Part shown: in pieces, positions 2,720-40,017 of the stretch
Layout of the letters: each line of letters opens with the position of its first letter
How positions within the stretch are numbered: position 1 is the stretch's first letter
Assembly (NCBI RefSeq): GCF_007743815.1
Contig: NZ_CP036265.1
Coordinates: forward strand, 3,924,823-3,988,822
Source of the DNA: Alienimonas californiensis
Lineage (GTDB): Bacteria > Planctomycetota > Planctomycetia > Planctomycetales > Planctomycetaceae
DNA: 64,000 bases
Reading direction: 5' to 3'
Translations under genes and position numbers: made by a program
The notes under the pieces: generated by a model
Told to the model about the DNA's origin: nothing
Database searches by the model: none
What the model saw: the letters and a program-made list of their open reading frames with translations, nothing else

Positions 2720-4120
2720 ATGGCCCGCGACTACTCCCACGAAAGCCTCTCCCACGATCCGATCCACGGCTACATCCCCTTTACCAGCGGCGCCGGGCTG
2801 CCGGCGGGGGAGGTGGGCGAGGCCCAGATCATCGACCACCCCTGGGTCCAGCGGCTGCGGGCGATCCACCAACTGCAAACCGCTTGGTACGTCTTCCCCA
2901 GCGCGGAGCACATGCGGTTCCAGCACGTCCTCGGGGCGATGCACCTCGCCGGGCGGGTCAGCGACGAGTGGTACGACTCTCTCGCCGCCAGTTGCCCGAA
3001 CACGCCGTCGAAGCCGCTGGTCGTCACCCTCTGCCGGTTGGCCGCCCTATTGCACGACGTGGGGCACGGGCCGTTCGGGCACTTCTTCGACGACCACTAC
3101 CTCGACCAGTTCGGCCTGACCCACGAACGCCTCGGCGCTCAGATTATCGAGCACGAACTCGGCGACCTGATCCGCGGCGTGCGTCGCAACCCCGGCGGGG
3201 TGATCGGCCCGCTGGAGGAGGTCGAACCGCGGCAGGTCGCCTATCTGATCCAGCGTCCCCGGTTGGGCGAGCCTGACGACCAGCCGGACTGGCTCCGTAA
3301 GCTGCGGAGCCTGTTCAGCGGGATCTACACGGTCGACAACATGGATTTCGTCCTGCGGGACGCCTACATGAGCGGCTACAACACCCGGGCCTTCGACCTC
3401 TCCCGGCTGACGCATTACAGCTTCTTCACCCCCGCCGGACTGACGATCCACGCCCGCGGCCTGCCGGCACTGATCAACTTCATCGAGACCCGGGCGAACC
3501 TGTTTCGCACCGTCTACTTCCACCGCACCGTGCGGGCCTTCGATCTGGCGCTGGAGGAACTGTTCGCGGAGACGATGTCCCGCCTGTTCCCCGGCAACCC
3601 GCTGGAGCACCTGGACGCCTACCGCCGGCTGACGGAGCAGAGTTTTCTGGTCGACGTCTCCCGGCTGTCGCTGTCGGACGACCCGGCGGACAAGGCGCTG
3701 GGCGAGAAATGGGACGCGATCCTCGCCCGCCGGTTCGGCTGGAAGATGGCGGCGGAGCGCACGATCTCCTTCCACAGCGGGGCCGCGGAGCGGACCACGA
3801 TCTACTCCGAGCCGGAGCTGATCGAGGCCCGCGTGCGGCGGTATCTGCCGAAGGAGATTCGCGAGATCGAACTCGCCGTCGACAGCGCCCGCCACTACCA
3901 CCGCCCCAGCGCCGACCTGCCGGTCGCCGGCCTGAACTGGCTCCTCGACCCCGCCGCCGGCGGCCCGACGGAACTGCACGACGACGAGCTGTTCCGCAGT
4001 CTGCCGCTGGCCTTCGCGATCTTCCGCATCTACGCCCGCAACCACCAACACGACCGCGAGATCAACACGGCGCTGGCCAAGGCGGTGGGCGGGGCGGGGG
4101 ATACGAAGACGAATATGTGA
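2720..4120 (+). CDS. HD-domain phosphohydrolase (dGTPase-like)
   Basis: A 466-residue cytoplasmic protein of the HD superfamily. The N-terminal third has the metal-binding set: His 69 in RFQHVLGAMHLA, the HD doublet 112-113 in ALLHDVGHGPFGH, and a later Asp in TVDNMDFVLRDAYMSG. The order and spacing follow the SAMHD1/dGTP triphosphohydrolase-like branch, whose characterised members hydrolyse dNTPs or related nucleotides. The ATG at 2720 gives MARDYSHESLSHDPIHGYI, a normal start for this branch. The gene ends 10 bases before the inverted-repeat element starting near 4127. Nucleotide substrate is not determinable here. Confidence 0.88.
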   Translation: MARDYSHESLSHDPIHGYIPFTSGAGLPAGEVGEAQIIDHPWVQRLRAIHQLQTAWYVFPSAEHMRFQHVLGAMHLAGRVSDEWYDSLAASCPNTPSKPLVVTLCRLAALLHDVGHGPFGHFFDDHYLDQFGLTHERLGAQIIEHELGDLIRGVRRNPGGVIGPLEEVEPRQVAYLIQRPRLGEPDDQPDWLRKLRSLFSGIYTVDNMDFVLRDAYMSGYNTRAFDLSRLTHYSFFTPAGLTIHARGLPALINFIETRANLFRTVYFHRTVRAFDLALEELFAETMSRLFPGNPLEHLDAYRRLTEQSFLVDVSRLSLSDDPADKALGEKWDAILARRFGWKMAAERTISFHSGAAERTTIYSEPELIEARVRRYLPKEIREIELAVDSARHYHRPSADLPVAGLNWLLDPAAGGPTELHDDELFRSLPLAFAIFRIYARNHQHDREINTALAKAVGGAGDTKTNM

Positions 4121-4126
4121 GGGTCA

Positions 4127-4161
4127 AATCACCAAGGGACAAGACACAAGATACAAAGACG
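4127..4161 (+). repeat. Left inverted-repeat arm of the IVS-like element
   Basis: This 35-base arm pairs with 4519-4553, with three mismatches. It begins 7 bases after the stop codon of the HD phosphohydrolase and ends one base before an ATG at 4162. The four-helix-bundle frame remains open through this arm, but it contains no ATG, GTG or TTG in that frame. Confidence 0.85.
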
Positions 4162-4514
4162 ATGGACCGCGGTTCGATCTGGAGGAACGCACCGAACGGT
4201 TTGCCCGTGAGGTACGGGCACTGGTTCGTCGCCTGCCGCGAACGGTCGCCAATCAGGTAGACGGGCGGCAGCTGCTCCGCTCGTCAGGGTCGGTCGCTGC
4301 GAACTACTTCGAGGCGAACGACGCACTTGGCCCGAAAGACTTTCGGTTCCGCATCAAGATCAGCCGGAAGGAGGCGAAGGAAAGCGGCCTCTGGCTCCGG
4401 CTACTCGACGCTCGCGGAGAGGCGGCGATTTCGGACGAGCGGGATCGTCTCAACGACGAGGCCCTCCAACTGGTCCGGATCTTCACCGCGATCCTCCGCA
4501 AGCACAGCGGCTAG
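4162..4514 (+). pseudogene. Four-helix-bundle protein (23S rRNA IVP/S23 family), start out of frame
   Basis: From base 4173 to the TAG at 4512-4514 there is an uninterrupted 113-residue frame that begins FDLEERTERFAREVRALVRR and contains RSSGSVAANYFEAND and SRKEAKESGLWLRLL. This is the complete core of the four-helix-bundle family encoded by 23S rRNA intervening sequences, related in fold to the Avd accessory protein of diversity-generating retroelements. No ATG, GTG or TTG precedes it in frame. The only nearby ATG, at 4162 just after the left arm, is one base out of frame, as if a base had been lost within about ten bases of the start. The gene is either newly broken, uses a rare start, or needs a frameshift. 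The body is fully intact, which argues for recent inactivation or real expression. Confidence 0.7.
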
Positions 4515-4518
4515 AGCC

Positions 4519-4553
4519 CGTCTTTGTGTCTTGTGTCTTGTGCCTTGGTCATT
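4519..4553 (-). repeat. Right inverted-repeat arm of the IVS-like element
   Basis: This is the reverse complement of the left arm at 4127-4161 (32 of 35 identical). It begins 4 bases after the stop codon of the four-helix-bundle frame and ends 3 bases before the stop codon of the convergent ferredoxin gene. Confidence 0.85.
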
Positions 4554-4556
4554 CCT

Positions 4557-4913
4557 TTACACCCACTCCGGGCTCGGCTGAATCTCGTCCGCCACCGGGC
4601 TGCCGGCGTCTTTGCGGCCGCTGCCTTCGAAGCGGCTGATCACCTCGACGGTCATGTCGTGGTCGCACAGCAGTTGGCAGGAGAGGCGGATCTGCGGGTC
4701 TTCTAGGCCCTTCGCCTCGCGCACAGCCTTTTCGGCGGCGGTCATCTTGCTGGGCAGGCCGTCGGTGATCTTCACCCGGCAGGTGGTGCACTTCGCCACG
4801 CCGCCGCAGGCGTGCAGCTGGTCCTGGCCGGCGTCCTCGGTGAGGGCTTTGACGAGGCGCTTGTCGGCGGGGACGTCGAAGGAGCCGGCGTTCTTGACGG
4901 TGAGGGTGGGCAT
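4557..4913 (-). CDS. 2Fe-2S plant-type ferredoxin
   Basis: A 118-residue soluble electron carrier. The four cluster cysteines are visible at 36, 42, 45 and 79 in the order C-x5-C-x2-C-x33-C (LHACGGVAKCTTC, then IRLSC), the plant/adrenodoxin-type arrangement of the beta-grasp fold. The start MPTLTVKNAGSFDVP begins directly with the first strand. The C-terminal 30 residues after VEVISRF are a hydrophilic tail. It is divergent from the Mrp-type ATPase gene at 5061, with about 150 bases for promoters. The redox partner is not identifiable, although an Fe-S carrier-type neighbour makes a link to cluster metabolism plausible. Confidence 0.93.
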   Translation of the reverse strand: MPTLTVKNAGSFDVPADKRLVKALTEDAGQDQLHACGGVAKCTTCRVKITDGLPSKMTAAEKAVREAKGLEDPQIRLSCQLLCDHDMTVEVISRFEGSGRKDAGSPVADEIQPSPEWV

Positions 4914-24680: not shown

Positions 24681-24761
24681 GGCGGAAGGGGGAGGGCGGA
24701 ATGCGGAGGGAAGCGGCGGATCGGAGTCGTGCCTTCCGCCTTCCGCCTTCGCCCCTCCGCC
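24681..24761. repeat. Imperfect inverted repeat with iterated purine-rich arms
   Basis: Arms 24681-24710 and 24732-24761 are inverted repeats with 25 of 30 positions identical and a 21-base loop. Each arm is built from ggcggaa/gggagg-type words. It fills the gap between frr and the histidine kinase, and resembles in design, though not in sequence, the arms at 4127-4553. Confidence 0.7.
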
Positions 24762-39256: not shown

Positions 39257-39931
39257 ATGCCTTCTGCCCCTCCACCCGACGCCCCTGCCGAGCGCCGCGT
39301 GCGCACCGTACTCAGCCGCCTGAAGGCTGCGTATCCGGTCGCGGAGTGCGCGCTGCATCACGAGTCGCCCTTCCAACTGCTGGCCGCGACGATTCTCTCC
39401 GCCCAGTGCACCGACGCCCGGGTGAACCAGACGACGCCCGCCCTGTTCGCCCGCTTCCCGGACGCCCCCGCCCTGGCCACGGCGGACGTGAAGGAGGTTG
39501 AAACCTTGGTGCAGAGCTGCGGGTTCTTCCGCTCCAAGGCGAAGAACCTCGTGGGGATGGCGACCGCCCTGGTGGAGCGGCACGGCGGGGAGGTGCCCCG
39601 GCGGCTGGAGGACCTCGTGACGTTGCCCGGCGTGGGGCGGAAGACAGCGAACGTGGTGCTGGGCGTCTGCTTCGGGATCGCGGAGGGGGTGGTGGTGGAC
39701 ACGCACGTCGGCCGGATCAGCCGCCGGCTGGCCTTCACCACGGAGTCGGACGCCGTGAAGGCGGAGCGGGATCTCTGCGAACTGCTGCCGAGATCGCGGT
39801 GGGTGAGTTTCTCGCACCGCCTGATCCTGCACGGCCGCAGCGTGTGCGACGCGCGTAAGCCGCGGTGCGGGGAGTGCGTGTTGCGGTCCGTCTGCCCGCG
39901 AGTGGGGGTGGGAGGGACAGGGGAGGAGTGA
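39257..39931 (+). CDS. nth: Endonuclease III
   Basis: A 224-residue base-excision-repair glycosylase/AP lyase. Helix-hairpin-helix [15 protein letters not shown] with catalytic Lys, catalytic Asp in [13 protein letters not shown], and the 4Fe-4S site C-x6-C-x2-C-x5-C in [18 protein letters not shown] are intact. The last residues (VGVGGTGEE) are encoded within an inverted-repeat arm, so the C-terminus may have been captured from repeat sequence. Confidence 0.95.
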
Positions 39932-40017
39932 GGAGTGAGGGGGGAGGAGTGGACGAATCGGCCGCGTCACGCCGACAGGGACGAACCCCTCTCCCTCCTC
40001 ACCCCTCCCTCCTCCCC
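39920..40017. repeat. Inverted repeat spanning the nth-dcd junction
   Basis: Arms 39920-39950 and 39987-40017 are inverted repeats with 25 of 31 positions identical. Each arm is a run of ggagtga/gggagg words. The left arm overlaps the nth stop codon and the right arm ends 3 bases before the TTG of dcd, so the hairpin lies over the likely ribosome-binding region of dcd. Confidence 0.65.

Follow-up and report, generated by a model that had tools for sequence, protein, structure and literature searches.

What is an inverted-repeat element with the outline of a 23S rRNA intervening sequence (IVS) doing between two protein-coding genes of a planctomycete, and does such an element move? The element in question is 427 bases long and occupies positions 4127-4553 of the window, by which we mean the whole 64,000-nucleotide stretch of the Alienimonas californiensis genome that was analysed (contig NZ_CP036265.1, positions 3,924,823 to 3,988,822). 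Its left arm (4127..4161, + strand) and right arm (4519..4553, − strand) are inverted copies of each other, each 35 nt long with 32 identical positions (91%), across a spacer of 357 nt; remeasurement reproduced the dimensions given in the original prediction. Also as predicted, the element is placed cleanly between the stop codons of two convergent genes: an HD-domain phosphohydrolase gene (2720..4120, + strand), which stops 6 bases before the left arm, and a 2Fe-2S ferredoxin-like gene (4557..4913, − strand), which stops 3 bases past the right arm. In the predicted transcript, the arms close a hairpin (z = −7.45). The prediction had correctly described the arms as inverted repeats but overlooked their make-up, which is that of degenerate tandem heptamers. 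The left arm contains four such units of the CNAANNN type (CCAAGGG, ACAAGAC, ACAAGAT and ACAAAGA), and the units of both arms follow the pattern CAAGNNA, with an AA core that goes with protein subfamily II as defined below; the period-7 arms are matched within the copy.

The spacer holds a frame (4170..4514, + strand, stop TAG 4512-4514) for a protein of the 23S_rRNA_IVP / S23 / TIGR02436 type, which scores above the cut-off with Pfam 23S_rRNA_IVP (PF05635, E-value 6e-10) and matches TIGR02436 (E-value 7e-17). Its AlphaFold model consists of four helices (pLDDT 95.4) and matches 2RLD (TM 0.78) and 2GSC (TM 0.77). The predicted kinship of fold with Avd of diversity-generating retroelements (DGRs) is real, albeit weaker (TM 0.71 to 4DWL, 0.69 to the DGR ribonucleoprotein). 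No match to the Avd family was found by sequence, the profile matches of the window protein being PF05635 and TIGR02436 only; relatives of subfamily I do give weak scores with Pfam bAvd and NCBIfam DivGenRetAVD. Profile searches of the element found neither a catalytic domain nor a transposase, but the IVP frame only.

That the frame is of the 23S-IVS four-helix-bundle type is thus confirmed; that it is complete, as had been claimed, is doubtful, as its N-terminus has no in-frame ATG, GTG or TTG. An ATG at 4163..4165 (+ strand) is offset by one base from the reading frame of the conserved protein and is a candidate for the original start, the offset then being due to a 1-nt frameshift or to a sequencing error. 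In the sister species (G003), a GTG is in frame with the orthologous protein. For the window copy, a frameshift, the use of a rare start codon and a sequencing error are therefore all conceivable; because a start codon is missing, the copy may be dying. Comparison of the two orthologues (dN 0.205, dS 1.48, dN/dS about 0.14) indicates that the protein has evolved under purifying selection.

The nearest known thing to this element is the 23S rRNA IVS with an S23p ORF of Coxiella, Leptospira and Brucella (PMC4990558), which encodes a protein of the same family, totals about 430 nt and has its one ORF flanked by terminal inverted repeats of about 28 bp, much as the window element has hairpin-closing arms. 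In Coxiella, tandem GACAGAT heptamers are found beside the ORF (PMC4990558); in our reading, they have an AG core. The defining feature of an IVS, however, is its location in an rRNA gene, whereas the window element is flanked by the HD and ferredoxin genes, which confirms the predicted stand-alone layout outside rRNA. The two differ further in that the window arms are wholly made of heptamers, their maintenance appears to take place at the DNA level, and the protein is under purifying selection.

To place the element among its relatives, we collected 110 loci of subfamily II, to which the window element belongs, from more than 15 phyla, and 87 loci of subfamily I. The loci were chosen by sequence score and the census is a non-random sample; the subfamily labels derive from two search queries, and the E-values and shuffle tests below ignore kinship. 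The arms show a plan that is common to the family. Arms above the 99% level of Markov-shuffled flanks were present at 77 of the 110 subfamily-II loci and 64 of the 87 subfamily-I loci, compared to 1 of 27 control HD genes with any arm above the same level. Among arms of at least 20 bases, the best period was 7 in 76 of 91 cases for subfamily II, and 50 of the 55 subfamily-I arms likewise had a best period of 7. The heptamer unit varies between copies, whereas the two arms of any one copy share it. No rRNA was detected in a search of the surroundings of the family loci. The window element thus probably belongs to a huge family of minimal mobile elements that is spread over many bacterial phyla and is apparently undescribed. 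The original prediction knew of no described element of this composition; we found no publication joining heptamer arms to S23/IVP genes in the open-licence literature, and an earlier account may exist elsewhere.

The core of the heptamer, read in the left arm on the strand of the gene, is linked to the protein subfamily: it is A-A in 71/71 subfamily-II arms and A-G in 45/47 subfamily-I arms. This rule also applies in genomes of 65-70% GC, that of A. californiensis included, and most of the 25 held-out plasmid loci, which had not been used in finding it, conform to it. Two held-out loci, L322 and L324, are clear exceptions, and their assignment by score to subfamily II is less decisive; several of the held-out arms contain AA and AG together, and L243 and L244 are devoid of clear arms of the expected strand. 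It is mainly because the core follows the subfamily that we infer a putative recognition, presumably by binding, of the heptamer repeats by the protein.

The two arms of an element also change in concert. In a 30-base ungapped core compared between the window element and its orthologue in the sister species, 9 of the 10 changes that separate the left arms have a counterpart in the right arm, with the same new base, and arm differences amount to 2 and 4 positions within the species as opposed to 10 and 13 between them. Several of the mirrored changes could stem from a single heptamer shift or from a few such events, which makes the number of events uncertain. Across 100 elements that share sites with relatives, the score of an element's own left and right arms exceeded that of its left arm paired with the right arms of same-site relatives in 74 cases (median 35 versus 22.7); these rows are not independent, and the shared-site clusters, made by tblastx, may merge neighbouring junctions.

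Concerted change would also be expected if the heptamers were a by-product of replication slippage and the arms were equalised by template switching across the hairpin, with no recognition by the protein, and heptamer repeats are indeed over-represented in many bacteria (PMC4692102, PMC4679880). Such a process does not account for a core dinucleotide that follows the protein subfamily whatever the phylum and GC content, nor for a period of 7 that is seen around these genes and not around control genes, and we regard it as highly improbable.

The mismatches between arms bear on the level at which pairing is preserved. Overall, 182 are of the G-U type and 197 of the A-C type (117 versus 140 in subfamily II, 65 versus 57 in subfamily I), and near-perfect arms contain 22 and 20, respectively (8 versus 10 in subfamily II, 14 versus 10 in subfamily I); an excess of G-U over A-C was not found in either strand sense. 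The even balance argues that the arms are maintained as DNA, and their pairing fits either selection on sites in DNA or copying of DNA from one arm to the other. It counts against an element that operates as RNA, in which the hairpin would be cut from transcripts by RNase III and spread by reverse transcription with the help of an Avd-like protein. In favour of such a cycle are the Coxiella IVS, which carries S23p and tandem GACAGAT and whose 28-bp terminal stem is cut by RNase III (PMC4990558), the fold matches to Avd and the DGR ribonucleoprotein, and the strong RNA hairpin. The window locus, however, differs from DGRs, with which it has the four-helix-bundle fold in common and matches by fold only, in having no reverse transcriptase in cis. 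The occurrence of reverse transcriptases is uninformative, as 162 of the 170 family genomes encode at least one, and none is near the element: the single RVT_1 match of the A. californiensis genome, at 2,460,993, is 1.46 Mb away from the window, which starts at 3,924,823. We therefore consider an RNA-level cycle decidedly unlikely. The trans-acting reverse transcriptase envisaged in the original prediction gained no support beyond the Avd-like fold.

Insertion at new sites is apparent among the relatives, most clearly in an operon of Nostoc plasmids that comprises genes X, Y and Z. Plasmid pNsp_a is filled at the X|Y junction and empty at Y|Z, while pNsp_c carries a different element at Y|Z and is empty at X|Y. 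In pC052_A, about 210 bp from the end of Z have given way to a subfamily-II element whose arms are perfect (TAATTCG)n. Ten related plasmids were compared at X|Y: at least five are empty and three contain the element, in copies that are 98.3-99.1% identical, compared to 90-95% for the adjoining genes. Of the 60 bases beside the insertion, 13 differ between pC052_D and pNPM1, both of which are filled, whereas each of the two is nearly identical to an empty allele, with 2 differences for pC052_D and 1 for pNPM1. The simplest reading of these sequences is that the element would have inserted independently at the same site in two alleles; gene conversion with a tract that coincides exactly with the element could be an alternative. 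RTTCT(A) on both sides of the X|Y insertion may represent a target duplication of 5-6 bp; at Z, the target was deleted instead. In pNPM1 (locus L327), the X|Y element contains an extra 182 bases that interrupt its four-helix gene.

Other junctions have been entered more than once. In the planctomycete family, atpG|atpD has been invaded at least twice, its elements having two or more origins, and one junction of a microcompartment operon holds both subfamilies. One atpG|atpD locus (L096, G004:C1:1976911-1982571) contains two four-helix-bundle elements in tandem whose heptamers differ. A candidate empty site for L076, the sole PF05635 copy in a 17-species genus, was rejected, the one relative with the operon having another gene in the gap. 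In cyanobacterial plasmids, the elements often lie within defence operons (cas1/cas2, cas6/cas4, cas10/cmr3, DISARM drmD / MmeI), as at loci L243, L245, L244, L246, L314 and L319, and L076 is likewise in a DISARM-like operon.

At operon junctions shared between genomes, many copies have resided for a long time, which is compatible with a host function, too. The element could be a module that serves its host, the arms being DNA or RNA operators through which the small protein tunes the operon, with movement reflecting rare horizontal transfer rather than transposition in the element's own interest. Long residence at conserved junctions (atpG|atpD, the microcompartment operon, a rimM|trmN-like junction in Flavobacterium), purifying selection on the protein, and the proposal that heptamer arrays of Geobacter are global regulator sites (PMC2700814) all point in this direction. 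Against it, the same junctions hold different subfamilies or nothing at all in relatives, many unrelated junctions are occupied, and the insertion in pC052_A truncates a gene; on balance, we find a host-serving module unlikely.

The mobility that was predicted for the window element thus stands for its class, in which empty and filled sites occur, and not for the window site, at which no movement of the copy itself was seen; the empty and filled sites all come from relatives. The sister species has the orthologous element at the same HD-ferredoxin junction. This gene adjacency was found only in the two available species of the genus, both of which are filled, and there is therefore no empty junction for comparison. 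As far as can be seen from these two genomes, the window copy would be a resident that has been inherited since before the two species split. The nearest relatives of its protein beyond the genus, at about 55% identity, belong to other families of the phylum and to other phyla, and this distribution favours an acquisition through transfer that predates the diversification of the genus. In the 5.48-Mb genome of A. californiensis, the gene of the window element is the sole PF05635 gene. The core of its arms has no further copy in that genome, nor a second one in the 64-kb window (chance expectation 0.00). The refuting condition named in the original prediction, conservation at this locus in all relatives with no copies in any genome, thus receives a mixed answer: the locus is filled in both species, but elements of the same plan abound in other genomes.

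Combining these findings, we propose that the window element is a resident copy of an IVS-like mobile element that operates at the DNA level, with a protein that reads the heptamers and with catalysis supplied in trans; we put the probability of this reading at roughly two in three. The protein, which like its relatives of solved structure is probably a pentamer (the Xanthomonas homologue is cited as a homopentamer in PMC4990558, with reference to Lin et al. 2006), would read an AR dinucleotide every 7 bp in both arms. A protein ring on successive heptamers of both arms would then pair the ends of the element as DNA. With no catalytic domain of its own, the element would depend on host replication and repair, or on an enzyme of another element, for excision or cutting, copying and joining. 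Insertion would favour intergenic gaps, between a stop and the next start, where insertions would survive because damage to the host is least.

Inverted ends together with empty and filled sites, as seen in the relatives, are traits of IS elements and MITEs, and short inverted ends, a preference for intergenic sites and a possible short target duplication are held in common with IS elements, MITEs and REP/RAYT systems. The present elements differ from all of these in the absence of a transposase and in having ends that are heptamer arrays, which differ between copies and are matched within a copy. Similar arrays have been published with no link to S23/IVP genes: the GGGAATC heptamers of Xanthomonas (PMC4692102) and the heptamer ‘regulator sites’ of Geobacter (PMC2700814) are intergenic, tandem and often arranged as convergent inverted pairs, like the arms described here. 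The arms of one planctomycete element (L066) use GGGACCG, which is the heptamer of 49 unexplained arrays in Geobacter metallireducens (PMC2700814). The window itself contains two gene-less hairpins: one at 24681-24761, with 30-base heptamer-like arms (CGGAAGG units), fills the gap between two minus-strand genes, frr and one for a histidine kinase, and the other at 39920-40017, with 27-base heptamer arms (GGAGGAGTGAG...), lies between the genes for endonuclease III and a dCTP deaminase-like protein. In 864 kb of the A. californiensis genome, gene-less heptamer hairpins were not in clear excess over those of control periods 6, 8 and 9.

A more far-reaching idea, which we put forward tentatively and with less than even confidence, is that these elements represent a categorically new kind of transposase-free mobile DNA, in which a small pentameric Avd-like protein would read a dinucleotide every 7 bp in two inverted arrays by means of a coevolving AA/AG code, and of which the rRNA IVSs and the heptamer arrays of Xanthomonas, Nostoc and Geobacter would be special or gene-less cases.

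Genes for ‘Four helix bundle protein’ (S23/IVP) are annotated with no function in very many bacterial genomes, and what 23S intervening sequences are for, and how they spread, has been a standing question since about 1990. With the protein tied to heptamer arrays that have a subfamily-specific core, and with empty sites at hand, both the target of the protein and the way in which a unit that lacks a catalytic gene moves become testable. The family furthermore offers an origin for unexplained heptamer repeats in several bacterial groups.
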